From: a bacterium
GTDB taxonomy: Bacteria; SZUA-79; Acidulodesulfobacterales; Acidulodesulfobacteraceae
Assembly: GCA_021845685.1 (NCBI GenBank)
Contig: JAJZVN010000020.1
Span: 1-32,147, forward strand
DNA: 32,147 bases
Direction of reading: 5' to 3'
The notes under the pieces are model-generated. The model was not told the origin of the DNA, made no database searches, and was given only the letters and a program-made list of their open reading frames with translations. A program made the position numbers and the translations under genes. Positions within the stretch are counted from its first letter, which is position 1, and every line of letters starts with the position of its first letter. Shown one piece after another: positions 3,141-31,229 of the stretch.

Positions 3141-4049
3141 CTAAATTTGATGAGCAACGCAATAACCGTTGTCTTTTTTACACATTGTTAGTTCAGGCTG
3201 TATTACGGCATGATTTATTTTAAACTTCTTTGACAGCATATATTGAATATTATTTATTATACAACATAAGTCGGCAGAATCTTTAATTTTATCATCTATC
3301 AGCACATGCGAGCTAAGAAGTATAAAAGACTTTGAAAGACTCCATATATGAAGATCGTGAACATTTTTTACACCTTCTATTTCAAGAATTTCTTCCTGAA
3401 CTTTTATGTAGTCTATTTCTTTAGGAACGGCTTCCAGCAAAATATTTATAGTCTCATTTATTACTGAAAAAGCCCCGATGGCAATGATAGGCGCTACAAG
3501 TAAACCTATAATTGCATCAAAATAATATAGCCTTGTTAAATATATTAAAATACCTGCTACTATTATCGAAAAAGAAATAATGCTATCTCCTATTATATGA
3601 AAAAAGGAGCTTTTTATGTTTAAATTTTGATGAATATCTTTATAAATTTTAAACCCTATTATTATATTAATAATAAAACTTATTGACGCAAACAAAATCA
3701 TAAGTTTAGAATTAACTATTTCAGGATGAATTAACCTTAAGTAGCTTTCATACATTAAGGCAATAGAAATGATTAATAATAAAGCCGCATTCAACAAGGC
3801 AGTAAGTATGCCGAGCCTATGAAAACCGTAAGTATTTTTAGCGGTGGGTTCTTTTTTTATTTGAGATTGAGCAATCCATGCAAGCAATAAAGAAGACGCG
3901 TCCACAAAAATATGACCCGAATCGGCATAAAGCGCCATGCTTTTTGATATTATAGCGCCGAAAAATTCCGTTGCAAGCACGCATAGCGTTAAAATAAAGG
4001 CTAATTTTAAATTTTTTTCATGCCGAATATGATGATTATGTTCATCCAT
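3141..4049 (-). CDS. cation diffusion facilitator (CzcD-type metal exporter)
   Basis: A CDF antiporter of about 302 residues, predicted to export Zn2+ or a related divalent metal across the inner membrane in exchange for protons. It has a His-rich N-terminus (DEHNHHIRH), six hydrophobic segments, and the two metal-site motifs of the Zn/Cd-CDF group: HxxxD in TM2 (ADSGHIFVDAS) and HxxxD in TM5 (HIIGD). The C-terminal cytoplasmic domain (EEILEIEGVKNVHDLHIWSLS) is the ferredoxin-like dimerisation and metal-sensing domain. The ATG at 4049 is preferred over an upstream TTG two codons earlier. It appears monocistronic. Metal identity cannot be fixed from sequence, though the His/Asp sites favour zinc. 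Confidence 0.9.
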   Translation of the reverse strand: MDEHNHHIRHEKNLKLAFILTLCVLATEFFGAIISKSMALYADSGHIFVDASSLLLAWIAQSQIKKEPTAKNTYGFHRLGILTALLNAALLLIISIALMYESYLRLIHPEIVNSKLMILFASISFIINIIIGFKIYKDIHQNLNIKSSFFHIIGDSIISFSIIVAGILIYLTRLYYFDAIIGLLVAPIIAIGAFSVINETINILLEAVPKEIDYIKVQEEILEIEGVKNVHDLHIWSLSKSFILLSSHVLIDDKIKDSADLCCIINNIQYMLSKKFKINHAVIQPELTMCKKDNGYCVAHQI

Positions 4050-4115
4050 AAACAATATATAAATATGTAAAAGAAAAGGCTTTATAAATATTTATAAATA
4101 TTAAATATTTAATAT

Positions 4116-9511: not shown

Positions 9512-9709
9512 GGATATATTTATATATTTAAATTTTTTTTCTTGCAATTTTAAATATATAAATATACCATATTAAATTAAAAATAATTAAAATTTTATAT
9601 GATAAAATAAGGGTTTTATTTGCTTATAAAATAAAATGACGAAAATAAAAACTATTTTATTTATTTTTACTTGGGGCGAACCGATACTTTGAACGGCGCA
9701 GTTATTTTA

Positions 9710-11920
9710 ATGGTTATTTTAATAGTTATTTTATTTTTATTCCTGTTATCAATACCTTTTATTATTTCATTTAATCCAAAACTATCTTTAATATTCAGTT
9801 CTGCAATATATCTGCTCCTTTCCGTTTTTCTGCTATTTTCATTATTGTTCGGATATGCAAAATTGCCGCTATCATTGCCGTTTTCTATTCAGCTAAGCGA
9901 ACTGTTCGGATTGCGCTCATCTACTTCAGACCATATTACTTATTTAACCACTATACCTTATCTTAAATTTTCATATCTTTTTGACAGCCTGTCGCTTTTC
10001 TTCGGTTTTTTAATAGCATTTTTAGGTTTTATTTCTTCTTTATATTCATTTAATTATTTATATGAAGAACATTATAAAAATAAATCATTGTTTGTAATAT
10101 TATTTAACGGGTTTATTATTTCAATGCTTTTTGTTGTGTTCAGCGCTAACGGGCTGTCATTTCTTATATTCTGGGAAATTATGTCAATTCTTTCATTTTT
10201 TCTTGTCTTATTTGAGTACGAAAAAGAAGAAAGCAAAAAAGCGGCTAATCTTTATATAATTATGACTCATATCGGCACATTTTTCATTTTCTTGCTATTC
10301 CTTTATATGTTCATGAAAACAGGAAGTTTTTCTTTTGAAACATGGAAGCATTTAGGTATTAGCGGCGGTTTAAGCGTTGCTGGCATGACGATAATTTTCA
10401 TCCTTACCCTTCTTGGCTTTGGAATGAAAGCAGGTATTTTTCCGCTTCATGTATGGCTTCCTAAGGCTCATCCTGAGGCTCCGTCTAGCGTATCCGCTTT
10501 GATGTCCGGTATTATGATAAAAACGGCAATTTACATGATGATAAGATTTTATTTTGAATTTATGAAATCATACGGGTGGGGTTTTGGATTTACTATTCTT
10601 TTAATTGGCGCTCTTACGTTAATTTACGGGGTTCTGAATGCCGGAATTCAGGATAATATAAAGCGGCTTTTAGCGTATTCTTCAATGGAGAATATCGGAA
10701 TAATGCTTATGGCATTAGGTTTAGCAATGATATTCTATTCTCAAGATATGTATCTTCTTTGCGCATTTGCAATGATGGCTCTTTTGTTTCATATTATGAA
10801 CCATGCTTTATTTAAAGGACTTTTATTTCTCGGTTCAGGCGCTATCGCTTCTCAAACCCATACAAAAAATATGAATAAATTAGGAGGGCTTGTTAAAAAA
10901 ATGCCTGCAGCCTCATTTATTTTTCTTATCGGAGTTTTATCGGCGTCAACGCTTCCGCCCTTTAACGGTTTTGTCAGCGAATGGATGATTTATCAATCTT
11001 TACTGATGGCAAGCAGTGTTAATATTGAAATTATTAAAGTATTTACGCCGATATTTGCTTCGGTTATGGCCTTAGCCGGCGGGTTGGCGGCGCTTGCGTT
11101 TGTTAAAGCATACGGCATATCTTTTCTTGGAAGAGCAAGATCTCAAGGAGCAAATAGCGCAAAAGAGCCTCCTTTTTTAATGCTTGTATCAATGGGAATT
11201 CTTGCGTTCTTATGTTTTTTGCTGGGTATATTTTCATTTATAGGACTTATGCCTATAAACAAAGTAGTTAAAGAAATCACGGATATATCTATTTATAAAA
11301 ATATTACAATATCTTACGGTTCAATAGTTACTCTCCCAAAGTACAGTTTAGGAGTTGTTTCTCCGTTAGGGCTATTAGCCGCAGGAGTTATTTTTATGGC
11401 TGCGGTATATCTATTTATAAAAATATTTGGAAATATGAAAATAAGAATTTTTGAAACATTTGCATGCGGTCTTGAAAATAAAGATGTTTATAATTTTTCT
11501 GATGCGCAAATCAGTAAAGATGTTTGTAATGCAGGCACCAGCAATAATCATGAAGGTAATAATGATAATACAAATAATGACAATATAAATGCATATACTA
11601 AAATCAATAATGCTCAATATAGTTCAACAGGTTTTTCTCAGCCGTTAAGAAGAATTTTTGAAAAAATATATAACATTAAAGAAAACTTAATAAATGAAGA
11701 GTATAAAAGAAAATATTTTTTTCCGGTTAAAAACTATATATTTAAAGCCGGCGATTTATTTGAGTGTTTTTACAATTCATTTGCAAGCAAATTTTTAGAA
11801 AAAATTTCAAAATTAAGAGCCTACATTCAGGGCGGAGTCGTTCAGACTTATATAGCTTACATAGTCGGCACCCTTATAATTTTATTAATATGGGTAAGCT
11901 GGTTTTATCATGCGGGCTGA
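9710..11920 (+). CDS. HyfB-type membrane subunit (NuoL/Mrp antiporter-like) of an Ehr/Hyf-like complex
   Basis: A proton-pumping-type membrane subunit of roughly 736 residues, homologous to HyfB/HycC and the antiporter-like complex I subunits. Conserved blocks are GFGMKAGIFPLHVWLPKAH PEAPSSVSALMSG (the channel Lys, His and Pro-broken helix) and LAYSSMENIGIM. About 14 to 16 hydrophobic helices fill residues 1-590. An Asn/Asp-rich hydrophilic insert (around protein residues 610-650) precedes a last C-terminal helix, making it longer than E. coli HyfB. The ATG at 9710 is preferred; a TTG 39 bases upstream is possible and no clear Shine-Dalgarno decides. It opens the gene series hyfB-C-E-F-G-I. 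Ion translocation is inferred from family membership. Confidence 0.88.
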   Translation: MVILIVILFLFLLSIPFIISFNPKLSLIFSSAIYLLLSVFLLFSLLFGYAKLPLSLPFSIQLSELFGLRSSTSDHITYLTTIPYLKFSYLFDSLSLFFGFLIAFLGFISSLYSFNYLYEEHYKNKSLFVILFNGFIISMLFVVFSANGLSFLIFWEIMSILSFFLVLFEYEKEESKKAANLYIIMTHIGTFFIFLLFLYMFMKTGSFSFETWKHLGISGGLSVAGMTIIFILTLLGFGMKAGIFPLHVWLPKAHPEAPSSVSALMSGIMIKTAIYMMIRFYFEFMKSYGWGFGFTILLIGALTLIYGVLNAGIQDNIKRLLAYSSMENIGIMLMALGLAMIFYSQDMYLLCAFAMMALLFHIMNHALFKGLLFLGSGAIASQTHTKNMNKLGGLVKKMPAASFIFLIGVLSASTLPPFNGFVSEWMIYQSLLMASSVNIEIIKVFTPIFASVMALAGGLAALAFVKAYGISFLGRARSQGANSAKEPPFLMLVSMGILAFLCFLLGIFSFIGLMPINKVVKEITDISIYKNITISYGSIVTLPKYSLGVVSPLGLLAAGVIFMAAVYLFIKIFGNMKIRIFETFACGLENKDVYNFSDAQISKDVCNAGTSNNHEGNNDNTNNDNINAYTKINNAQYSSTGFSQPLRRIFEKIYNIKENLINEEYKRKYFFPVKNYIFKAGDLFECFYNSFASKFLEKISKLRAYIQGGVVQTYIAYIVGTLIILLIWVSWFYHAG

Positions 11921-12131: not shown

Positions 12132-13109
12132 ATGTGGAATGATATATTAAATTTAAAGGTGGCTTTAATCGGGATAGCACAGATTTTAATCCTTATTATA
12201 ATAGCGCCTTTTATAAATTCTTATATAAATAAAATAAAAAGCATTTTAAGAGGACAACGCGGAAGACCTTTGCTTCAAGGGTATAAAGACATTTTTAAAC
12301 TTATACGCAAAGAAGTTGTTCTTTCAGAAGATGCGTCATACATTTCTAAAATTGCGCCGTATATAGTTTTTGTTTCTATTCTGGTATCGGCTTGTTTTCT
12401 TCCTGTATTTAGCCCGCAGGCTTTGCTTTCATTTACGGGAGATATTATAGCATTAGTTTATACAATTGGGCTAGGTACTTTCTTTATGGCTTTATACGGT
12501 ATGGATCAGGCTTCAAGTTTTGGCGGTCTGGGTTCAAGCAGGGATATTTTAATAGCTTCTTTAGCAGAGCCTACCCTTATGCTTGTCATTTTTGCTTTTG
12601 CTCTGCAAACAAAAACAACCAACATAAGCCAAATTTTTATTGATATACATAAAAACGGATTCTTAAATTACCCTGTTTCTTATGTTTTTGCATTAATGGC
12701 ATTTTTGATAATTTCTATTGCTGAAAACGGAAGAATACCGGTTGATAATCCTGATACCCACTTGGAACTGACTATGGTTCATGAAGCTATGATTCTTGAA
12801 GGTTCAGGAAGACATCTTGCCCTGTTTGAGTATTCGTCATATTTAAAATTAATAATATTTATAACGCTTGCTTCTAATATCTTTCTCCCTATCGGTGTTT
12901 ACAGCGGTGTTTCGTCTTCAATTTCATCTTTTTCATTTTTAACGATATTATATGCGATTTTATTTTATATTTTGAAGGTGTTAATTTTTGCAACACCGAT
13001 TGCTTTTATTGAAATATCCATGGCAAAATTAAGGTTTTTCAGGGTACCTGATTTCTTAATGCTCGGTTTTGTGCTGTCTATAATTTCATTAGTCCTTTAT
13101 TCAATTTGA
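12132..13109 (+). CDS. HyfC/HycD-type membrane subunit (NuoH-like)
   Basis: This 325-residue protein is homologous to NuoH/HycD, the membrane subunit that contacts the peripheral electron-transfer arm and forms the quinone-like cavity and first proton path. Seen blocks: RGQRGRPLLQGYKDIFKLIRKE, GLGSSRDILIASLAEPTLML, AENGRIPVDNPDTHLELTMV and HEAMILEGSGRHLAL. The acidic residues in these loops are the conserved ones of the family. It has about eight transmembrane helices and ends normally. It lies 211 AT-rich bases after the HyfB-type gene, wide for an operon, but all genes in the cluster are loosely packed and on one strand. Confidence 0.92.
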   Translation: MWNDILNLKVALIGIAQILILIIIAPFINSYINKIKSILRGQRGRPLLQGYKDIFKLIRKEVVLSEDASYISKIAPYIVFVSILVSACFLPVFSPQALLSFTGDIIALVYTIGLGTFFMALYGMDQASSFGGLGSSRDILIASLAEPTLMLVIFAFALQTKTTNISQIFIDIHKNGFLNYPVSYVFALMAFLIISIAENGRIPVDNPDTHLELTMVHEAMILEGSGRHLALFEYSSYLKLIIFITLASNIFLPIGVYSGVSSSISSFSFLTILYAILFYILKVLIFATPIAFIEISMAKLRFFRVPDFLMLGFVLSIISLVLYSI

Positions 13110-13355: not shown

Positions 13356-14009
13356 ATGCTAAATATCGCAAGTTTTATTGAATTGATGGGCGCTTTTGTT
13401 TTATTTTTTGCAATACTGCAAACCGCCAGCCACAGAGTTGATTTTTCAATCAAAGTTTACAGTATTCAATCTTTATTTTTAAGTATAACTATTTTTGTTA
13501 TGGGCATACATTCAAATAACGGCGAGTTATATTTGTCCAGTTTCCTTACTTTTGCAATAAAAGTTGTTGCGATACCATTTTTTTTAAATAAAGTAACGAG
13601 GAGAATTTCTATAAGAGAAAAGATTATCCCTTATATTAATATGACAAATTCCGTGCTTATTACAGGAGCTATAACCATATTTGCCTTTTTTATTACGAAA
13701 GGAGATTTTGCAAGCCATGAATTTATAGCCCGCCGTGTCTTTCCAACCGCATTGGCGGTTATTTTGATAGGTGTTTTTATAATGATTGCGCGCAAAAAGG
13801 CAATTATACAGATTATCGGTTTTTTGACCCTAGACAATGGAATCATTCTTGCTGCAACTTCAATAACTAAAGGCTTGCCGCTTGTCGTGGATATAGGAGT
13901 ATTTTTTGACGTATTTATAGGAGCTATTATGGCGGGAGTGCTAATATACCGCATAAGAACATCATTTGACAGTCTTGATACGTCAAAAATGTCAAACTTA
14001 AAAGAATAA
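13356..14009 (+). CDS. HyfE-type membrane subunit (NuoK-like)
   Basis: A 217-residue, six- to seven-helix protein matching HyfE of hydrogenase 4, whose C-terminal part corresponds to NuoK. Near-family features include FFLNKVTRRI, the segment ILIGVFIMIARKKAIIQIIG, then LTLDNGIILAATSITKGLPLVVD and GVFFDVFIGAIMAGVLIYRI. In complex I the NuoK glutamates line the proton path. Its presence separates this cluster from the simpler HycCD-only formate hydrogenlyase and points to the Hyf/Ehr type. A short repeat of the preceding gene's last codons (TCTATAATTTCATTAG) occurs in the gap at about 13200. Confidence 0.87.
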   Translation: MLNIASFIELMGAFVLFFAILQTASHRVDFSIKVYSIQSLFLSITIFVMGIHSNNGELYLSSFLTFAIKVVAIPFFLNKVTRRISIREKIIPYINMTNSVLITGAITIFAFFITKGDFASHEFIARRVFPTALAVILIGVFIMIARKKAIIQIIGFLTLDNGIILAATSITKGLPLVVDIGVFFDVFIGAIMAGVLIYRIRTSFDSLDTSKMSNLKE

Positions 14010-14335: not shown

Positions 14336-15802
14336 GTGATAGTTCTAGTTTTAACATTTTTAATTTTTGCAATTTTATACAGATTTATAAACATAAAGCT
14401 GACATTTTTAATTCAGCCCGTGATAACTTTTTTAATTTTATTATATGCTTTATTTCTTACTAATATCGTTCTTAAGCGCCAGATAATTTTCAGCTTTTAT
14501 AATCTTTTATTTTTAGATTCTTTAAATACTATTCTTATTATTATAATTACTTCGCTATCTTTTTTAGTTGCTATTTATTCTATTGGATACTTTAAAAAAG
14601 AATTAAAATCAGGACTGCCCGGAAAAAAAATAAAAGAATATTACTTCTGGATGAATTTTTTTATTTTTGCTATGCTTTTGCTTTCAATTTCAAACAATCT
14701 CGGTGTCTTATGGGTAGCAATTGAAGGAACTACGCTTGCAACTACTTTTCTCATCAGTTTTTACAGAAATAAAGAAGCGGTTGAAGCCGGCTGGAAATAT
14801 ATTATAATCTGCTCGGTAGGAATTGCTTTTGCTTTTTTTGGAATAGTGCTTTTATATTTTGCATCTTCAAGTTTTCTGGGAGAAAGTTTGAGCGCTCTTA
14901 ACTGGACTGATATGATGAAGGTTGCTCCTCATTTTAATAAACATATCCTAGATATTGCTTTTATTTTTGTTTTAGTCGGTTTCGGCACAAAAGTTGGTTT
15001 TGCTCCCTTTCATTTCTGGCTTCCGGATGCACATTCAGAGGCTCCGACACCTGTAAGCGCTTTAATGTCCGGAGTATTATTAAATTGCGCTTTATATGCC
15101 ATTATAAGAGTTTACGCTATTTTAAATATGGACGGTCAGGCATATTTTGCCAACGAACTTTTGATGTTTTTCGGATTGTTTACGGTATTTATCGCGGCTA
15201 TTTTTATAATCAAGCAAAATGATTACAAAAGGCTGCTGGCATATTCTTCAATGGAACATATGGGTATAATTGCTTTTGCTTTTAGTATAAGTACTCCCCT
15301 CGCTATATTTGCCGCAGTACTTGGAATGATAAATCATGCTTTTACTAAAAGCCTCATGTTTTTTTCAACGGGTTCTATACTTTCAAATTATCATACAAAG
15401 AAAATATCAGACATTAGAGGATTATTTAAAATTTTGCCCTTTACCGCAGTATTTATGATAATAGGAGTTTTGGCTATTACCGGAAATCCGCCGTTCAGCA
15501 TTTTTATAAGCGAATTTTTAACATTGATTGCTTCATTTAAAGCAAATTATGCTCCCGAAGGTATATTACTTTTAATTTTTTTAGTTGTTATATTTATTGG
15601 GTTTATCAGGCATTTTATTGGAATGGCTGCCGGAAAACCGACTCTTGAAAAGAAAAAAGAAAGTATTTATATGATTTTGCCGATGTTTTTAATTTTAATA
15701 GTTATATTGAGTTTTGGAATTTATATTCCCGTCGATTTTAAAATTTTAGTAAATAATATTGTGGTGATAGTTAAAGGAACTAATAACGGCAAGGGATTAT
15801 AG
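14336..15802 (+). CDS. HyfF-type membrane subunit (NuoN/NuoL-like)
   Basis: A 488-residue antiporter-like subunit, second in this cluster, homologous to HyfF. It contains the broken-helix region GFGTKVGFAPFHFWLPDAH, SEAPTPVSALMSGVLL, and LLAYSSMEHMGIIAFAF, with the conserved channel Lys and His. About 14 helices are visible. The start is GTG at 14336 with an AAGGA upstream; the protein begins directly in the first helix. Two antiporter-type subunits plus HyfE- and HyfC-type subunits imply a membrane arm able to move several ions per electron pair. The next Hyf-type gene does not begin until 18259, because the kinase cassette lies between. Confidence 0.9.
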   Translation: MIVLVLTFLIFAILYRFINIKLTFLIQPVITFLILLYALFLTNIVLKRQIIFSFYNLLFLDSLNTILIIIITSLSFLVAIYSIGYFKKELKSGLPGKKIKEYYFWMNFFIFAMLLLSISNNLGVLWVAIEGTTLATTFLISFYRNKEAVEAGWKYIIICSVGIAFAFFGIVLLYFASSSFLGESLSALNWTDMMKVAPHFNKHILDIAFIFVLVGFGTKVGFAPFHFWLPDAHSEAPTPVSALMSGVLLNCALYAIIRVYAILNMDGQAYFANELLMFFGLFTVFIAAIFIIKQNDYKRLLAYSSMEHMGIIAFAFSISTPLAIFAAVLGMINHAFTKSLMFFSTGSILSNYHTKKISDIRGLFKILPFTAVFMIIGVLAITGNPPFSIFISEFLTLIASFKANYAPEGILLLIFLVVIFIGFIRHFIGMAAGKPTLEKKKESIYMILPMFLILIVILSFGIYIPVDFKILVNNIVVIVKGTNNGKGL

Positions 15803-16067: not shown

Positions 16068-16766
16068 ATGAGAGGATTTACGGATTATAATATTGATGTA
16101 GTTATAAAATTCGGCGGGAGCATACTTGCCGATAAGGATATGTGCCAGAAAACTATTAACTCGATAACCAGCTTAGTCGAAAACAGGTATAGAGTTATGG
16201 TTATTCCCGGCGGAGGACCCACGGATAATACAATAGAGGCTTTAGATAAAAAGCATCCCTTCAACCCCGATACCCACCATAAAGCCTGCGCGAGAGCGCA
16301 AGACCAGACTGGTCTTATGATTTCCGACCCTGTCTGGAACGGCAGGTTAACTCCGTGCGAAACCCTCTATGACGTAAGAAAAGCAAACGATAACGGGTTT
16401 GCGGGAGTGCTTCTCCCATCAAGGCTGATATTCGATTTGGATCCATTTGAACGGACGTGGGAAATTACGTCCGATGCCATGAGCGTATATTTCTCTTGGC
16501 TTGTAGGAGCAAGGCGCACTATTATCCTGACAAATGTTGACGGCATTTATTTGGATGGCGATATAAATAATCCAGATAAGTTCGTAAAAAGTATAACAGC
16601 GGGCGAACTCGAACTCTTAGGACATACTGCCGTCGATGTTTGCACTCCTGCGTTTCTTAAAGCCAAAAAAATGGATTGCTTTGTAATGAACGGACTCCGT
16701 TCGAAAACCATGCTTGATTTCTTAAGTGGCAAAGAAGCAATAGGAACTTTTATAAAAGGGGCATAA
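16068..16766 (+). CDS. amino-acid-kinase-fold protein (UMP kinase / MoSto / MfnE-like)
   Basis: This 232-residue protein has the amino acid kinase fold, whose members phosphorylate carboxyl, phosphate or alcohol groups with ATP, or in MoSto store molybdate. Visible motifs: VVIKFGGSIL (residues 11-20, Lys14 and the GG phosphate loop), VIPGGGPTDN (46-54), WEITSDAMS (131-139) and ILTNVDGIYLDG (153-164), plus the UMP-kinase/MoSto-like end VMNGL...GTFI. It lacks regulatory ACT or PUA domains. A strong AGGGAG Shine-Dalgarno precedes the ATG. Its stop overlaps the next start (TAATG), implying translational coupling with the NDPK-like gene. Base composition is visibly richer in G and C than the flanking Ehr-like genes, suggesting separate acquisition. 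The substrate is unknown; the partner suggests nucleotide or phospho-metabolite chemistry. Confidence 0.8.
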   Translation: MRGFTDYNIDVVIKFGGSILADKDMCQKTINSITSLVENRYRVMVIPGGGPTDNTIEALDKKHPFNPDTHHKACARAQDQTGLMISDPVWNGRLTPCETLYDVRKANDNGFAGVLLPSRLIFDLDPFERTWEITSDAMSVYFSWLVGARRTIILTNVDGIYLDGDINNPDKFVKSITAGELELLGHTAVDVCTPAFLKAKKMDCFVMNGLRSKTMLDFLSGKEAIGTFIKGA

Positions 16767-17926
16767 TGAATAACATTGCAAAAGAAAAAATAAAACAGTC
16801 TAAGCTCGGAATGCTTGTTTTTTCCCCAGACGCGATAAAGAGTAATTCGCCCGGAAGTATTATTTTTAAAATCAGAAAGGACATAGGATTAAATAATATC
16901 GGACAGCAATGGTTCCAGCACAGTGATAATTCTATTATAAAATTTTACCAGAACAGCATACCGGATAATGCCCCACATATTCATTTAATCCAGAAGCTCT
17001 TTACTTATTCCAAGGTTCTTGTAACATTCTGGAAAGGCGAAGATGTTTTTACTAAACTTCAGAAAATAAAAGGCGCAAGCCACCCTGCGGACGCTAAAGC
17101 AGGCACTATCAGAAGCAGTTTTTATTGCGATAACTCGATAACTAATTTAATACATGCAAGCGACAATGCCGATGAAATGCTGATGGAAATGGACGTGATG
17201 GGAATATCTGAAATACCCAGCACGATTTATCGAAACTCTGAAGTAAATGCCTATAGTTTTGAGCATAACGGCGGTTATCAGCTCTTAAAGGCGTTACAAC
17301 AGTATGTAAGACCGTTAGATAAAATTAAACGCAGTATGTTCTTTATCCCGCACGATAATATTCCGGCCGATGCGGACGCACGGAAAACTTTTAATGTTGT
17401 TTCAGGGATATTAAAAAAAATAGAAGTTGAAACCCAGGACGATACGGTAAAAATGGCGGTAAAATGCTTTTTTGAAAGCAAGGCATGCGAACTTGATAAT
17501 ATCCTGCTTAATAATCCCGGTATGGATGTAAGTCCATGGAGTAGGATAGTTATCCAAAGCGGTTCGGTTTGCATAGGTAAATGGCGCAGATTAAGAATAG
17601 ACGACGTAGTCCATAAATTAAAAACAATACTTGGGGATTCTAAATATTTAATAAGCGGTAGTTCAGCTTTGTATTTAAACGATATATCTGTAAAACCTAA
17701 TGATATTGATATATGGTGTGATGAGGATAATCTTGTTGAAATAAGCAAAAAACTTAATATAAAAATAATTAAAGACGAAAATCAATTTTATACGGCAAAT
17801 AAGGTTTTACTTAATATGGACGGTTGGGATATTGAGATAGTCGGCAATGTTTATCTTAAATCAGATAAACATCTTTTTATAGACGAGTTAATGCTGAAAA
17901 CATCAAAAAACAAGGTGGAATTATAA
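16766..17926 (+). CDS. NDP-kinase-like domain fused to a nucleotidyltransferase-like domain
   Basis: Residues about 13-145 resemble nucleoside diphosphate kinase: MLVFSPDAIKSN in place of the usual IKPDA strand, a middle WKGEDVFTKLQKIKGASHPADA, AGTIRSSF (Arg116), and NLIHASDNADE with His130 in the position of the phospho-histidine. The Lys of KPDA is Ser here, so activity may be changed. A linker of about 140 residues follows without a recognised motif. Residues 290-360 look like a DNA-polymerase-beta-type nucleotidyltransferase: SGSSALYL (297-304), NDIDIW with Asp313 and Asp315, and a later WDIEI carboxylate. At 386 residues it is far longer than normal NDPK (about 140-150). It is coupled to the amino-acid-kinase gene. 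Both domain calls are by motif only; the C-terminal one is less sure. Confidence 0.7.
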   Translation: MNNIAKEKIKQSKLGMLVFSPDAIKSNSPGSIIFKIRKDIGLNNIGQQWFQHSDNSIIKFYQNSIPDNAPHIHLIQKLFTYSKVLVTFWKGEDVFTKLQKIKGASHPADAKAGTIRSSFYCDNSITNLIHASDNADEMLMEMDVMGISEIPSTIYRNSEVNAYSFEHNGGYQLLKALQQYVRPLDKIKRSMFFIPHDNIPADADARKTFNVVSGILKKIEVETQDDTVKMAVKCFFESKACELDNILLNNPGMDVSPWSRIVIQSGSVCIGKWRRLRIDDVVHKLKTILGDSKYLISGSSALYLNDISVKPNDIDIWCDEDNLVEISKKLNIKIIKDENQFYTANKVLLNMDGWDIEIVGNVYLKSDKHLFIDELMLKTSKNKVEL

Positions 17927-18258: not shown

Positions 18259-19980
18259 ATGAAAAATAAATTAGATTTTATTCAAAATTTAGATAAAGAT
18301 ATTAAGGAAGCCGTAACGGAAAATTTTTATAATCAGGATAATGAACTTGTTTTAAAAATAAACTTGAAAGATTTAAAAAAAATATGTCTGTATTTTTTTA
18401 AAGATTTAAAATTTTATTTGTTATCAGCTTTTGCAGTCGATGAAAGTAAGAATGACGGCAATAAATTTAAAATAAGATATATTTTTTCTCATTCATCTAT
18501 AGATTTGTTCATAATTATTGAAACGGAGACGAGTGGGACATTTCCGTCTTTATCGGAAGAAATACCGGCTTTAAACTGGTACGAAAGAGAGATGAAAGAT
18601 TTATTCGGATTAATTCCGGAAGGACATCCTGACCCCAGACCGCTCATGCTGTTTCCTGAAAATTATCCGCAGGATATTCAAAATATGCATCCTCTAAGGA
18701 AAGACTATCCGTTTAATTTCAGACCGGAATTCAAAAAATACGGCGAATATAATTATAATAAAGACGTTAAAGGAGTCGGGGTTTTTAATATATTAGTCGG
18801 ACCTGTTCATGCAGGTATCATTGAACCGGGGCATTTTAGATTCAGCATGTCGGGAGAACCGATACTGCAATTGGAAATAAGGCATTTTTGGAAGCATAGA
18901 GGGATAGAAAAAATTGCCGAAGGGAAAACAATATATGAGGCATTATCTTTAGCCGAAAAAATATCTGGAGACCATTGTGTAGCCCATTCTTTAGCCTTTT
19001 TGGCGGCAGCCGAAAAGATTTTAAATATAAAAATTCCTGAAAACGTATTATATATAAGAACTATTTACGCCGAATTAGAAAGATTATTGTGTAATATCAA
19101 TGATTTTGCTTGGCTGTTTCAGGATGCGGGGTACAGTTTCGGCGCTCAGGAAACTTTTGTGTTAAAAGAAGATATTATGGAATTAAACAAATATTTGTCC
19201 GGAAGCAGATTTAATAAAGGCATCTTATCTCTTGGGGGAATAAATACCTGCGGGAATATTGATAACTTGAGAAAAAATGTTTTGAAGGAAAAATTATCTG
19301 ATTTTAGCAAACGTTATCTGAATTTAAAAAAAATGCTTTTAAATTCATCAACTATAGGCGAAAGGTTTGAAGAAACAGGATATATAAACAAAGAAACTAT
19401 TTTAGATTTATGCGCTTTGGGTTTCGCGGCAAGAGCATCGGGAGTGCCGTCAGACACTAGAAAAGAACATCCTTACCTGATTTATGATAAATTGCATTTT
19501 AACTCAAAAGTTTTAAAAAACAGAGATGTTTTTGCAAGGCTTTTAATAAGATTTTACGACATAGAAGAAAGTTTTTCAATTATAACGCAGTGTTTAAACG
19601 AACTGCCGGCAGAGGATATAAATAAAGCAGGCGGAGAGTACGCTGATAATAATGTTAATAATACAGGCGATAATATAAGTAAAAATAAAAGCAAAAATGA
19701 CCGCTGTATTATAGCTAAGAATGATAAAATAGACGCAGCTCAACAGTTATCAACTGATAGTTTACGCTCATGGGCATTAGGCTATTGCGAAAGCCAGAGG
19801 GGCAATATCATTCATTTTGTTAAACTTGATGAAAAATCAAGAATTTCAAGGTGGAAAATAAGAGACCCTTCTTTTCATAATTGGCAATTAATAGAATTTG
19901 CGGTTATAGGAGATATAATAGCCGATTTTCCAATAGTAAATAAAAGTTTAAATCTAAGCTATGCCGGAAATGATTTATAA
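18259..19980 (+). CDS. HyfG/NuoCD-type large subunit without Ni-Fe ligands (Ehr-type)
   Basis: A 573-residue fusion of a NuoC-like domain (residues 1-155, with ALNWYEREMKDLFGL and HPLRKDYPF) and a NuoD/hydrogenase-large-subunit domain (175-573, with GPVHAGIIEPGHFRF and IRHFWKHRGIEK). In [NiFe] hydrogenases the metal site is held by CxxC near the start of this domain and CxxC at the C-terminus. Here the first site reads SGDHCVAHS (Ser236, His239) and the last reads SLNLSYAGNDL (Ser567, Gly570), so all four ligands are gone and the protein ends where the second motif would lie. This matches Ehr complexes, not active hydrogenases. An Asn/Lys-rich insert lies near 455-495. A GAGGG Shine-Dalgarno supports the start. 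What it oxidises or reduces is unknown. Confidence 0.9.
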   Translation: MKNKLDFIQNLDKDIKEAVTENFYNQDNELVLKINLKDLKKICLYFFKDLKFYLLSAFAVDESKNDGNKFKIRYIFSHSSIDLFIIIETETSGTFPSLSEEIPALNWYEREMKDLFGLIPEGHPDPRPLMLFPENYPQDIQNMHPLRKDYPFNFRPEFKKYGEYNYNKDVKGVGVFNILVGPVHAGIIEPGHFRFSMSGEPILQLEIRHFWKHRGIEKIAEGKTIYEALSLAEKISGDHCVAHSLAFLAAAEKILNIKIPENVLYIRTIYAELERLLCNINDFAWLFQDAGYSFGAQETFVLKEDIMELNKYLSGSRFNKGILSLGGINTCGNIDNLRKNVLKEKLSDFSKRYLNLKKMLLNSSTIGERFEETGYINKETILDLCALGFAARASGVPSDTRKEHPYLIYDKLHFNSKVLKNRDVFARLLIRFYDIEESFSIITQCLNELPAEDINKAGGEYADNNVNNTGDNISKNKSKNDRCIIAKNDKIDAAQQLSTDSLRSWALGYCESQRGNIIHFVKLDEKSRISRWKIRDPSFHNWQLIEFAVIGDIIADFPIVNKSLNLSYAGNDL

Positions 19981-20054: not shown

Positions 20055-20594
20055 ATGTTCAATATTATAAAAACACGAATAAAAGAAGGAATAAAAACAA
20101 AAAAAATAAATATAGAAGATATTAAAAAAGATAATATTGTTATATTCAATGAAGAGCTAAAAAATAAATTACTGAATAAATCAAAAAATAAAAACTTTAC
20201 CAACAATATTTCCGTAAGAGTCGTTGATTCCGGAAGCTGCAATGCCTGCCTCCATGAAATGTCCGCCCTTACTAATCCTTATTATGATATGGAGAGATTT
20301 GGATTTAAGTTTGTGGCGGCTCCAAAACACGCTGATGTTTTAATGGTCGCGGGATGCGTGGCAAGAAATATGTATTCGGCATTGTTAAAAACATACGAGA
20401 ATATTCCACATCCGAAATTTGTCGTTGCTATAGGCGATTGTGCAATGAACGGAGGTGTTTTTAAAGACAGCTATGCTACATTAGGCGGCATTCAGGATAA
20501 ATTGACGGTTGATATTTTAATAAAAGGCTGTCCGCCGGAACCTATAGACATATTAGCAGGTTTATTATTAGCTTTTGGAAAATCTGCAAAATAA
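20055..20594 (+). CDS. HyfI/NuoB-type small subunit with Fe-S cluster
   Basis: A 179-residue electron-transfer subunit homologous to HyfI/HycG and NuoB. The conserved part begins at residue 54 with VRVVDSGSCNACLHEM (Cys62, Cys65), followed by GCVARN (Cys101), IGDCAMNGG (Cys129) and KGCPPEPIDI (Cys159). Cys62, Cys65, Cys129 and Cys159 would bind the proximal [4Fe-4S] cluster; Cys101 replaces the usual Gly-Pro/Gly position. The first 50 residues are Lys/Asn-rich and of low complexity. Unlike the large subunit, its cofactor residues are intact, so electron transfer is retained. The last 45 codons are repeated, diverged, at 23517-23654. Confidence 0.9.
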   Translation: MFNIIKTRIKEGIKTKKINIEDIKKDNIVIFNEELKNKLLNKSKNKNFTNNISVRVVDSGSCNACLHEMSALTNPYYDMERFGFKFVAAPKHADVLMVAGCVARNMYSALLKTYENIPHPKFVVAIGDCAMNGGVFKDSYATLGGIQDKLTVDILIKGCPPEPIDILAGLLLAFGKSAK

Positions 20595-22068: not shown

Positions 22069-22105
22069 ATTGATTTTTTAAAATTTGACCAGTATAATAA
22101 TAACT

Positions 22106-23122
22106 ATGAATGAAATTAATAAAATTGAAGATTTTTGCGGTAATCATGATAGTCACGCTTCAAATTGCCTGATTTGCGGAAGCAAGCTTCAATACTTGCA
22201 ATCTTCCAAAGAATTAACGTGTTTTTACTGCGGAAAAAAGGAAAAATCAAATATAGTCTGCGCAAATGACGAATCGCATTATGTTTGCGATGACTGCCAC
22301 AATATTTCTTCAATTAGTTATATTAAAGAATATGTCATAGACACTGCTGCCGAAAATCCTTTCGAAATTGTATTTTCTATATTAGAAAATAAAGATATTC
22401 CTATGCTGGGCTGTCATCATAGCTATATTTTAACGGGAGCGGTTCTTGCCGGTTTGAAAAACAAGAAACTTTTTAATATAAACAATGATGACATAGAAGA
22501 GGCTTTTTTCAGATTATCGAAACAGGCTGTCGGCGGATATTGCGGATTAAGCGGAGTATGCGGAATTGTCCCTGCTTGCGGGGTAATTTATTCTATTTTA
22601 ACAGGGGCGGTCTGCGGCAAAGATATAGAGCAAAAAATTACTATGAGTTTAACCTCTTCCGTTTCAAGCGCCGTTTATGAACTCACAGGACCTTCATGCT
22701 GCAAAGCATATATGTTTAAAGCCCTTGAAATTATTATTTCAGGTATTTATCAAGATTTTGGAGAAGCGCTTGCCGTTAAAGATTTTGAAATTAAATGCGG
22801 TTTTGTCGAATTGCATCCTCACGGATGCAGAAAAGGAAAATGTCCTTATTACTCAGGTGTAATATTCAATGTTTACAACAATAACAATCAAGCTGTTTGC
22901 ATACCTGCAGTCGCGACGGAAAACTGGAATACGTCGGTTTCCTCAGTTTCCTTAAATTTATCTGCTTCGTCTTCATCCGTTTCATCTGCCGCTATAACAA
23001 ATGTCAGTGTATGTGATGCCGGCGTACAGTCTGCTGAATATAATAATAAAATGAATACAATGAATACGATAAAATATACGTTTGGCGAAAATAAAGTAAA
23101 AGCCGATAGCGCGCCGTGCTGA
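22106..23122 (+). CDS. DUF5714 domain protein, Cys-rich, probable zinc binding
   Basis: A protein of about 338 residues recognised as DUF5714, a family of unknown function seen mostly in anaerobes and archaea. The N-terminus is a zinc-ribbon array: CLICGSKL, CFYCGKKE, then NIVCANDESHYVCDDCH. The core has GCHHSYILTGAV, GGYCGLSGVCGIVPACG and GPSCCKAYM, with HPHGCRKGKCPYY near the end. This many conserved Cys and His suggests a metal- or Fe-S-binding role. The last 70 residues are a Ser/Asn-rich low-complexity tail. The ATG at 22106 is preferred over an upstream TTG. The gene is alone between fragments, inside the segment bounded by the two HyfI tails. Confidence 0.75.
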   Translation: MNEINKIEDFCGNHDSHASNCLICGSKLQYLQSSKELTCFYCGKKEKSNIVCANDESHYVCDDCHNISSISYIKEYVIDTAAENPFEIVFSILENKDIPMLGCHHSYILTGAVLAGLKNKKLFNINNDDIEEAFFRLSKQAVGGYCGLSGVCGIVPACGVIYSILTGAVCGKDIEQKITMSLTSSVSSAVYELTGPSCCKAYMFKALEIIISGIYQDFGEALAVKDFEIKCGFVELHPHGCRKGKCPYYSGVIFNVYNNNNQAVCIPAVATENWNTSVSSVSLNLSASSSSVSSAAITNVSVCDAGVQSAEYNNKMNTMNTIKYTFGENKVKADSAPC

Positions 23123-23475: not shown

Positions 23476-23516
23476 AAAATATAGAAAACAATCTAAACTT
23501 AATCTTGCAAGACTTC

Positions 23517-23654
23517 AACGGAGGCGTTTTTAAAGATAACTATGCTATATTAGGCGGCATTCAGGATAAATTGCCGGTTGATATTTCAATAAAAGGCTGT
23601 CCTTCCGAACCTATTGATATATTGTCAGGCTTATTATTAGCCTTTGGAAAATAG
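23517..23654 (+). pseudogene. duplicated 3' end of the HyfI-type gene
   Basis: This segment encodes NGGVFKDNYAILGGIQDK, LPVDISIKGCPSEPIDILSG and LLLAFGK, matching the last 46 residues of the intact gene at 20448-20594. By hand count about 15 of 135 bases differ. The reading frame and the stop are kept, although the rest of the gene is missing. It begins a second DUF4143 ATPase context, exactly as the intact gene precedes the first one. Confidence 0.85.
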
Positions 23655-26215: not shown

Positions 26216-27841
26216 TTATTTAATCGTTATTTCTTCAGCATAAGACGGGATATAGGCATTGAAACCCAAAGGAGTAATTTTTTCTTTAAAAATTTCCATT
26301 TTATCGTCGTCGCCGTGAATTAGACATATTTTTGTTTTTATCCGGTTTTTTAATGCGCTGAGCCATTCTATAAGCTCGTTTTGGTCGGCATGCGAAGAAA
26401 AACCGTTTATAGTATGAACCGACGCATTTACGTCTATATGCTCTCCAAAAACCTTAATTGTTTTATTTCCTTCAACGATTCTTCGTCCCAATGTTCCTCT
26501 TGCCTGATATCCTATAAAAATAATAGAATTTTCTTTGCGCCACAAATTATGCTTTAAGTGATGAAGCATCCTTCCGCCTGTGAGCATTCCGCTTCCCGCA
26601 ATTATTATCGCGCCTTCGGAAAACTTATTAATTTCTTTAGATTCTTCTATATCTCTTGTTTCTGTGAGATTTGGCATTTCAAAAGGATTATTATTAGTAA
26701 ATAGCCGCAGCTCGTCTTTCCTGAAATATTCAGGATTTCTAAGAAATATATCGGTTATATTGATTGCTAAAGGAGAATCAAGAAATATTTTGCATTTCGG
26801 AAGTTCACCGCTTTTGTAAAACTCTTTTAATACATATAAGATATCTTGCGTTCTTTCCATAGCGTAGCTTGGTATCAAGACATTGCCGCCGCTGTTAATT
26901 GTTTTTTGTATAATATTTAAAAGCTCAACTTTTGAATCGTCAAAACTTTTATGCAGCCTATCCCCGTAAGTAGTTTCAATATAAACGGCATCGGCTTCAT
27001 CAGGGTAGGAAAAATTATTGACTATCGGTTTGTTTTTATTTCCGAGGTCTCCTGAAAATATAGCCGATTTATTGCCTATTGTAAGTTTTACAAAGCTTGA
27101 ACCCAGAATATGCCCGGCATCTTGAATTTCTACGGCAATATTATGTTTTTCATCTATAACAAAAGGCGTGTTATAAGCTAATATAGGGTTAAAATGGTCT
27201 AAACTTTCAAACACATCAATTTCATTATATAAAAGTTCCGCATTAAAATTATATTCATTTTTGCTGCCTTCATTTTCGGTGTTTTTGCTTTTGTCTATGT
27301 TTATGCTATGTGCTGCAGCAGTATGATGATTATGTTTATCATAATCATGATGATTGCCGTAATTTGTCTCATGGGTGAAACGATTAGCGGTATAAGCCGT
27401 ATGATGATGAGTTGTTTGAAATTTTTCACTGTTTATATAAGCTTTATCAGATTTATTTGAATTTAAAATATTTTCTTCCGTTGCTTTTTTGGGATTATAC
27501 CTGAGCCGTCTTTTTAAATTATGTTTGTAATCTTCAAGCATAATTTTAGCGGTATCAAGCATTATTAGTCTTGCAAGCTGAAAAGTAGGTTTTGTGCAGT
27601 AAATTTTTCCTTTGAAACCGCCTTTGATGAGCATAGGAATCCTTCCGCAATGATCAAGATGCGCATGCGTCAATATTAAATAATCAATTTCTTCCGGATT
27701 AAAACCTAAATCAGAATTTTTGCTTTCTTCATCTTTGCCCTGAAAAAGTCCGCAATCTATCATTACAGAAACATCACCTTTTTTAACTATATGACAGCTT
27801 CCTGTAACAGTTTTTGCCGCTCCAAAAGATTGTATTTTCAA
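26216..27841 (-). CDS. beta-CASP metallo-beta-lactamase RNase-like protein
   Basis: A 541-residue MBL-fold, beta-CASP protein of the mRNA 3'-processing/RNase-like group (YSH1/CPSF-73-like, also RNase J relatives). Motifs in order: DCGLFQG, the zinc motif THAHLDHCGR (motif 2), GHILGSSF (motif 3), SGDLG (motif 4), then PSYAMERTQD, AGSGMLTGGRMLHHL, GYQARGTLGRRI and SSHADQNEL in the beta-CASP part. An Asn/His-rich insert (about residues 125-195, with HHH, HNHH runs) separates the zinc motif from motif 3 and is atypical. Predicted activity: zinc-dependent ribonuclease. Its first 100 residues are repeated as a truncated copy at 29476-29801. Confidence 0.9.
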   Translation of the reverse strand: MKIQSFGAAKTVTGSCHIVKKGDVSVMIDCGLFQGKDEESKNSDLGFNPEEIDYLILTHAHLDHCGRIPMLIKGGFKGKIYCTKPTFQLARLIMLDTAKIMLEDYKHNLKRRLRYNPKKATEENILNSNKSDKAYINSEKFQTTHHHTAYTANRFTHETNYGNHHDYDKHNHHTAAAHSINIDKSKNTENEGSKNEYNFNAELLYNEIDVFESLDHFNPILAYNTPFVIDEKHNIAVEIQDAGHILGSSFVKLTIGNKSAIFSGDLGNKNKPIVNNFSYPDEADAVYIETTYGDRLHKSFDDSKVELLNIIQKTINSGGNVLIPSYAMERTQDILYVLKEFYKSGELPKCKIFLDSPLAINITDIFLRNPEYFRKDELRLFTNNNPFEMPNLTETRDIEESKEINKFSEGAIIIAGSGMLTGGRMLHHLKHNLWRKENSIIFIGYQARGTLGRRIVEGNKTIKVFGEHIDVNASVHTINGFSSHADQNELIEWLSALKNRIKTKICLIHGDDDKMEIFKEKITPLGFNAYIPSYAEEITIK

Positions 27842-28280: not shown

Positions 28281-28703
28281 ATGTACTATTCAAATAATTT
28301 AAAAAAAATAACATATTTTTTTGTTTTTTCTTTTACAATAATTACTTTTTCCATTTTTTTATCAGGCTGCCCAGCTAAACCAAAACCTAAGCATATATAT
28401 TCTTTAAAGTATTATAAATCTCATATAAAAAAGGCAAAAGCCGAAGTATTTAGCTGCAATCAAATCCTTGTTGCCGCTATCGCTCCTCATATTCCGAAAA
28501 AACCGATACACTGGAAAAAAAATATTGGAGATAATTTTAGGCATCTTGCCGATTTATACGGAACTCTCCTTGAACCTGTTCAAACATATAGGAATATTAT
28601 AACAGGCGGCGGGTATAGTTTTAAAAATTGTATAAATGCTTTATCGGTGCTTTATCATAAAAGCAAAGGAATATATAAAAAACAACATCCTTCAATGTTT
28701 TAA
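28281..28703 (+). CDS. EexN-like small lipoprotein (copy 1)
   Basis: A 140-residue lipoprotein with an N-terminal hydrophobic segment and lipobox LSGC (Cys30 lipidated after cleavage). The mature part has YSLKYYKSHIKKAKAEVFSC (38-59 region) and KNCINAL (115-121), a pattern like the EexN entry-exclusion family (YYxxH...C...NCxNA). EexN proteins of conjugative plasmids block entry of related DNA, but chromosomal relatives have no known role; this match is by pattern only. The sequence is the same as the copy at 30807, with one silent change near the end. It overlaps the end of convergent vapC by 12 bases. An AGAGGA Shine-Dalgarno lies about 14 bases upstream. Confidence 0.75.
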   Translation: MYYSNNLKKITYFFVFSFTIITFSIFLSGCPAKPKPKHIYSLKYYKSHIKKAKAEVFSCNQILVAAIAPHIPKKPIHWKKNIGDNFRHLADLYGTLLEPVQTYRNIITGGGYSFKNCINALSVLYHKSKGIYKKQHPSMF

Positions 28704-29313: not shown

Positions 29314-29431
29314 TAAAATCACCTCTTTTGCTATTAACAAAACATATCTTATATGATGTATATTATATATTAATTATATGTATATATCAATTAGAAAAAA
29401 AATATAAAAAAATAAATTAGGATATAAAATT

Positions 29432-29450
29432 GGGGGAGGGGGTGGGTGGG
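29432..29450 (+). other. G-quadruplex-forming motif
   Basis: GGGGGAGGGGGTGGGTGGG consists of four runs of at least three G separated by single A or T bases, the pattern for a very stable G-quadruplex, and stands in strongly AT-rich DNA. It is on the plus strand, just beyond the broken end of the truncated MBL copy and inside its last open codons. Confidence 0.9.
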
Positions 29451-29475
29451 AAAAAAAATCGGTTGACAATATTTT

Positions 29476-29801
29476 AAATCGTGCTTGGAGTCTTCAAGCA
29501 TAATTTTTGCCGTATCCAGCATTATCAGTCTTGCAAGTTGAAATGTCGGTTTTGTGCAGTAAATTTTTCCTTTGAAACCGCCTTTGATAAGCATAGGAAT
29601 CCTTCCGCAATGATCAAGATGCGCATGCGTCAATATTAAATAATCAATTTCTTCCGGATTAAAACCTAAATCATAATTTTTGCTTTCTTCATCTTTGCCC
29701 TGAAAAAGTCCGCAGTCTATCATAACTTTAACGCCGTTTTTCTGAACTATGTGACAGCTTCCCGTGACAGTTCTTGCTGCGCCGAATGATTGTATTTTCA
29801 A
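29476..29801 (-). pseudogene. truncated copy of the beta-CASP metallo-beta-lactamase gene
   Basis: The first 103 or so residues match the intact gene at 26216-27841 almost everywhere: KIQSFGAARTVTGSCHIV, THAHLDHCGR and ARLIMLDTAKIMLEDSKHDL. Then the sequence leaves homology and runs through unrelated codons to a stop at 29391. It keeps the first zinc motif but lacks motifs 3 and 4 and all of the beta-CASP domain, so it cannot be an active RNase. The leader in front of its start is also similar to that of the intact gene. Confidence 0.92.
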
Positions 29802-30806: not shown

Positions 30807-31229
30807 ATGTACTATTCAAATAATTTAAAAAAAATAACATATTTTTTTGTTTTTTCTTTTACAATAATTACTTTTTCCATTTTTTTATCAGGCTGCCCAG
30901 CTAAACCAAAACCTAAGCATATATATTCTTTAAAGTATTATAAATCTCATATAAAAAAGGCAAAAGCCGAAGTATTTAGCTGCAATCAAATCCTTGTTGC
31001 CGCTATCGCTCCTCATATTCCGAAAAAACCGATACACTGGAAAAAAAATATTGGAGATAATTTTAGGCATCTTGCCGATTTATACGGAACTCTCCTTGAA
31101 CCTGTTCAAACATATAGGAATATTATAACAGGCGGCGGGTATAGTTTTAAAAATTGTATAAATGCTTTATCGGTGCTTTATCATAAAAGCAAAGGAATAT
31201 ATAAAAAACAGCATCCTTCAATGTTTTAA
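30807..31229 (+). CDS. EexN-like small lipoprotein (copy 2)
   Basis: The encoded 140-residue protein is the same as copy 1 at 28281, and about 40 upstream bases including the AGAGGA site are also alike. I find one base difference, silent, near the end of the gene. Its stop overlaps the next gene's first possible start (TAATG), a coupling absent from copy 1, where vapC converges instead. This copy therefore probably keeps the original downstream context. The EexN-like features are as in copy 1 (lipobox Cys30, Cys59 and NCINA at 116-120). Confidence 0.78.
   Translation: MYYSNNLKKITYFFVFSFTIITFSIFLSGCPAKPKPKHIYSLKYYKSHIKKAKAEVFSCNQILVAAIAPHIPKKPIHWKKNIGDNFRHLADLYGTLLEPVQTYRNIITGGGYSFKNCINALSVLYHKSKGIYKKQHPSMF

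Follow-up and report, generated by a model that had tools for sequence, protein, structure and literature searches.

The window, by which is meant the whole analysed stretch of 32,147 nucleotides, was found to encode six subunits resembling those of hydrogenase 4 and complex I. Their genes are all open, lie on the forward strand and were identified as follows:

9671..11920, forward strand: HyfB-like antiporter subunit, 749 aa (Pfam Proton_antipo_M, 5e-56; NCBIfam hydrogenase 4 subunit B, 572 bits)
12132..13109, forward strand: HyfC-like (NuoH-type) membrane anchor subunit (Pfam NADHdh, 1e-34; aligned)
13356..14009, forward strand: HyfE-like (NuoK-type) membrane subunit (NCBIfam hydrogenase 4 membrane subunit, 1.5e-23)
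14336..15802, forward strand: HyfF-like antiporter subunit (NCBIfam hydrogenase 4 subunit F, 460 bits)
18259..19980, forward strand: HyfG / EhrL-like large subunit without [NiFe] ligands, 573 aa, ATG start
20055..20594, forward strand: HyfI / EhrS-like small subunit (Pfam Oxidored_q6, 5e-29; alignment)

Proton-path residues were found to be kept in both antiporter subunits, these being E169 (TM5 Glu), K253 (TM7 Lys), K284, H378 and E437 of HyfB, the TTG start of which may be internal, and E130 (TM5 Glu), K219 (TM7 Lys), H308, H334 and E393 of HyfF. HyfI possesses C62, C65, C129 and C159, the ligands for one [4Fe-4S] cluster, and all four are retained by bacterial HyfI across phyla. An earlier note on this DNA had described the membrane subunits as intact and the small subunit at 20055 as retaining its cluster cysteines, and the alignments agreed with it on both counts. 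Domain searches of the operon identified neither NuoI/HyfH nor any other ferredoxin subunit, and NuoEFG and NuoI were not found adjoining it in the window. The order hyfB-C-E-F-G-I was shared by most complete loci across phyla.

Genes at 16068-17926, between hyfF and hyfG, were rejected as subunits, being absent from a close relative (G002); they comprise an amino-acid-kinase-like gene (MfnE-related) and an NDK-domain gene, are of higher G+C and are partly present in another genome (G005). At 22085-23122 lies a gene for a DUF5714 protein related to the double selenoprotein MbdU, at a score below the family cut-off, and a DUF5714 gene is also found near the hyf genes of several congeners. Downstream of it, a duplicate of a hyfI 3' fragment (23514-23654; 83% identical, residues 131-177) was identified as a trace of rearrangement. 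Local duplication was seen in two ORFs with identical 140-aa products (28281-28703 and 30807-31229) and, as part of the same event, in a metallo-beta-lactamase/beta-CASP gene (26216-27841) with a partial second copy (29391-29801). Elsewhere in the window genome (L027:354-8815, contig G000:C23), a second, divergent Cys-less Hyf-like complex is encoded, with site AG(M/T)H / SVAA and an N-terminal ferredoxin-like region on its HyfI.

The [NiFe] site of the large subunit

In the product of 18259-19980, Pfam recognised NuoC-like and NuoD-like domains along with a short stretch matching NiFe hydrogenase; the closest relative of solved structure by sequence is E. coli HycE. Alignment with E. coli HyfG, HycE and NuoCD gave the following at the two CxxC motifs:

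18964..18975, forward strand: S236-G237-D238-H239 at the first CxxC, equivalent to HycE C241-G-I-C244
19957..19968, forward strand: S567-Y568-A569-G570 at the second CxxC, equivalent to HycE C531-Y-S-C534

The earlier note had read SGDHC (Ser236/His239) and SLNLSYAG (Ser567/Gly570) at these places and all four Ni-Fe ligands as gone; its reading proved residue-exact, with no cysteine at any of the four positions. No other CxxC pair in window HyfG can act as ligand, which disposes of the note's own counter-case of an intact motif elsewhere. Cys240 adjoins the first motif but stands out of register by one residue, and it is not conserved in relatives. The protein ends three residues past the second motif and so has no C-terminal maturation extension, unlike E. 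coli HyfG and HycE, where one is present.

Orthologues within the genus (82-97% identity) and in other genera of the family Acidulodesulfobacteraceae (47-48%) read SGD(H/N) at the first site and LSY(A/S)GND at the second. Relatives in many genomes have these replacements too, and the replaced site is therefore not a sequencing slip. Nor is the absence of ligands due to a lack of maturation, since the same genome encodes a full-length classical (group 1-type) hydrogenase large subunit, with hypD on that contig, and an ordinary NuoD (G000:C29).

The best explanation is that window HyfG keeps the hydrogenase/NuoD fold, as predicted by modelling, and makes no [NiFe] site. The AlphaFold model (mean pLDDT 81.5) had HycE 7z0s_E as its top structural match (Z 44.1, 509 residues, rmsd 2.7) and shared its fold with NuoD (Z about 40-42); its quality is low at the beta1-beta2 loop and over the last residues, and pocket geometry is thus unreadable from it.

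The Cys-less clade and its pocket residues

When species genomes were scanned with the family alignment, relatives came to light in close MAGs and Candidatus Acididesulfobacter diazotrophicus (96% identical), with further ones in Aquificota, Campylobacterota, Nitrospirota, Methanocellales and one Woesearchaeota-labelled bin. The large-subunit alignment held 99 non-redundant proteins, 33 with all four cysteines and 54 of S-x-S-G type. The latter, from the window's phylum, Aquificota, Campylobacterota, Nitrospirota (including Nitrospira sp. RSF151, L059) and methanogens, carry, in the first motif, S (rarely C)-G and, if the second is complete, S-Y-x-G-x-D there.

An unrooted tree, built with the four ligand columns removed and without published EhrL (Geobacter, comammox) or Thermococcales MbxL/MbsL, separated 44 Cys-less S-type rows, among them a divergent paralogue from the window genome, from 29 others (active hydrogenases and NuoD) by a split of 100/100. 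Forcing window HyfG among Cys-bearing enzymes was 201 log units worse (AU p = 4e-50), and branching inside active hydrogenases, which the earlier note had named as the outcome that would count against it, is rejected. By the testimony of alignment and tree, the replacement of the [NiFe] site is ancient and fixed. The note's word "lost" gives only the likely direction of change, the tree being unrooted. An active hydrogenase with unusual ligands, for which the cofactor could be made given the group 1-type enzyme and hypD of this genome, is extremely improbable for a protein with no cysteine at the four positions, no maturation tail and a place outside the active enzymes.

The window genus grouped with Aquificota (98/92) and not with its own phylum, and constraining that phylum to stay together gave p = 0.048, a post hoc and borderline value. 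This may be read as a sign of transfer, in line with identities for HyfC/E/F/G of 55-63% to a Hydrogenothermaceae locus as against about 37-46% to sister genera.

Pocket residues were compared across the 54 clade members, with HycE residue roles taken from PMC9474812:

18823..18825, forward strand: Glu189, equivalent to HycE Glu193 in the beta1-beta2 loop, kept (E in 52/54)
19798..19800, forward strand: Arg514, equivalent to HycE canopy Arg478, kept (R in 46/54)
19951..19953, forward strand: Asn565, replacing HycE canopy Asp529 (N in 45/54)

The canopy Asp529 position holds Asp in all 33 active enzymes and all six NuoD compared. The quinone His of complex I (beta1-beta2 loop) corresponds to Ile188 and its quinone Tyr (first motif) to Gly237, with Ile and Gly, respectively, in 54/54 relatives; Gly237, Ser567, Tyr568, Gly570 and Asp572 are invariant wherever present in the clade. 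From the readings at the ligand, quinone and canopy positions, the HyfG pocket cannot be classed as a hydrogenase site, nor as a classical quinone one, and the earlier note's suggestion of a quinone standing in for hydrogen in the same pocket is weakened. The complex could nevertheless be a quinone oxidoreductase, its pocket holding quinone as in complex I and the HyfI cluster being the counterpart of N2, as the shared NuoD fold would allow and as is consistent with the quinone acceptor proposed for FDH-Ehr complexes (PMC6349859). This is considered unlikely, with both quinone residues replaced in every relative, the canopy Asp mostly Asn in the clade and an ordinary NuoD already encoded in the genome.

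Selection, natural variants and an archaeal branch

Pairwise dN/dS between intact copies of the genus was about 0.09-0.18 for hyfG and 0.03-0.09 for hyfI, with hyfC and hyfE still lower, values which clearly point to maintenance of the complex by purifying selection. Within two congeners, G003 (L019:10917-13409) and G004 (L018:6219-8477), hyfG is cut at the same point; in place of its 3' part and hyfI stands a segment that carries a cation-efflux gene, a homologue of which lies in the window at 3141-4055. No other close hyfI was found in these genomes, and their hyfB/C/E/F show low dN/dS despite the absence of hyfI and the hyfG end; both are MAGs, so that assembly or binning could explain the lesion. 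At 95%, the two lesion regions are closer to each other than much of their flanks, although the hyfG of G004 is closest to that of the intact G001, which suggests that the lesion may have spread by recombination. Such truncated copies are what would be expected of a decaying hydrogenase, and Geobacter Ehr is treated as non-functional in a 2026 paper (PMC13194489). For the window lineage, decay is contradicted by low dN/dS, six open genes and site residues fixed clade-wide, making it very improbable.

Among small subunits collected from the methanogen branch, all four [4Fe-4S] cysteines were absent in 33/33, and HyfI of this type was found in methanogen and related archaeal genomes (L055, L057, L058, L196-L199, L201-L235). 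The cysteine places read DNST, DNAA or DGSP, then GDD or GDE, then GNPP or GDPP, a replacement pattern (D-x-x-T/A/P, D/E, N/D) conserved in this branch, and the large subunits carry SGDE or CGDE with SYAGTD-type motifs. The branch keeps its six-gene operons and antiporter residues intact, and dN/dS among the closest three members was about 0.06-0.13. One sampled archaeal phylum gave a small-subunit match (E 1e-35) in 50/393 genomes, about 30 of them close. In a nearby relative (G346), HyfI instead has a ferredoxin domain fused to it.

Tentatively, and with slightly less than even odds, the methanogen branch may represent a full six-subunit complex I relative without redox cofactor ligands, the window complex, which has one cluster and no metal site, being an intermediate type; this is read from sequence, namely from the lack of [NiFe] ligands and quinone residues in HyfG and of cluster cysteines in HyfI. 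No report of a cofactor-free archaeal Ehr was found in openly licensed literature. If true, some process other than electron transfer would drive or gate the archaeal ion-moving arm. The series of metal site plus cluster, cluster only and neither would offer a direct test of the redox chemistry needed by a complex I-type pump. A non-redox role might extend to the window complex, the soluble part sensing or turning over a ligand to gate ion flow, with the cluster being structural. The archaeal branch, having kept its operon and proton-path residues at low dN/dS, speaks for such a role, which the retention of all four cysteines by bacterial members across phyla, the window included, renders quite unlikely.

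Candidate mechanism and comparison with known complexes

For the window we favour, at a probability of about 0.6, a six-subunit Ehr pump in which electron transfer through one cluster is coupled to ion translocation. A soluble cytoplasmic donor would pass electrons to the single [4Fe-4S] cluster of HyfI, which would exchange them with a small partner in the remodelled HyfG pocket (Ser236, Glu189, Arg514, Asn565, Ser567); turnover in the pocket would then be relayed via HyfC to HyfE, HyfF and HyfB, moving H+ or Na+. The fold is a predicted one, and we infer the electron transfer, its direction and its coupling from what was observed, namely the clade-wide conserved site replacement with its 100/100 split when ligand columns are left out, the purifying selection, the intact cluster cysteines and proton-path residues and the recurrence of hyfBCEFGI across phyla. 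Also counted in favour were a molybdopterin gene upstream in sister genera and the formate links of Geobacter and Nitrospira. Counted against the pump were electron entry, which the lack of a ferredoxin subunit in the operon leaves unaccounted for, the molybdopterin gene being unlinked to the operon in the window genus, the membrane genes still under selection in G003 and G004, and the archaeal branch, from which it follows that the scaffold can persist without the HyfI cluster.

In several loci of the sister genera, hyfB is preceded at about 90 bp by the molybdopterin oxidoreductase gene, whose homologue in the window genus is on another contig; other genomes have homologues at a distance from Ehr too, and the link is therefore weak. 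Geobacter Ehr subunits were of higher abundance on formate (PMC7894505), and formate or CODH genes are linked to the hyf-like cluster of Nitrospira (PMC5596200). By analogy with these relatives, the best lead for the donor would be oxidation of formate or another one-carbon compound. Sister genera also have NuoEF-fusion and FdhA-like genes downstream of hyfI; these were rejected as partners, since other genes intervene and the arrangement is not constant. No conserved partner gene was identified in the neighbourhoods of Aquificota, Campylobacterota, Nitrospirota and methanogens, which held mostly unrelated housekeeping, transport and sensor genes.

Ehr complexes were reportedly defined by Marreiros in 2013 and Coppi in 2005. 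They are group 4-like complexes without the Ni-Fe residues (PMC6349859, PMC10284858, PMC10432482), and the window likewise encodes a group 4-like large subunit without both CxxC motifs together with small, NuoH-like, HyfE-like and antiporter-like subunits. The earlier note's identification of an Ehr-type complex without hydrogenase chemistry is supported by ligand loss, gene set and membrane arm; the electron transfer and ion movement it also named belong to the favoured reading above. Ehr complexes are widespread and conserved, and have been treated as dead genes in one recent paper; from the selection and site data we argue that they work, and that their pocket is probably a third type beside hydrogenase and quinone sites.

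E. coli formate hydrogenlyase HycE and hydrogenase-4 HyfG are the best sequence and fold match and share the N-terminal NuoC-like domain, but possess the four Cys ligands in two CxxC motifs, the canopy Asp and the maturation tail, none of which is present in window HyfG, which branches apart from ligand-bearing enzymes; HyfA, D, H and J of the E. coli system are absent from the window. Complex I NuoD/NuoCD shares the fold and, as in window HyfG, ends directly after the last motif, whereas its quinone His and Tyr are missing here, as are NuoE/F/G/I from the cluster. Ehr complexes of Geobacter, Nitrospira and others share with the window a Cys-less large subunit and small, NuoH-, NuoL- and HyfE-like subunits (PMC7894505, PMC10284858), and no defining difference was found, the window having two antiporter subunits and no ferredoxin subunit. 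The gene set is identical to hyfBCEFGI of Acidithiobacillus ferrooxidans, classed as non-hydrogenase for Acidithiobacillus (PMC7735108), and of Nitrospira, where it is termed hyf-like (PMC5596200), with neighbouring genes differing in that CODH or formate genes are linked in Nitrospira. Given the published descriptions and this shared gene set, the window complex is, as judged by homology, a six-subunit Ehr complex (hyfBCEFGI) of an already described family.
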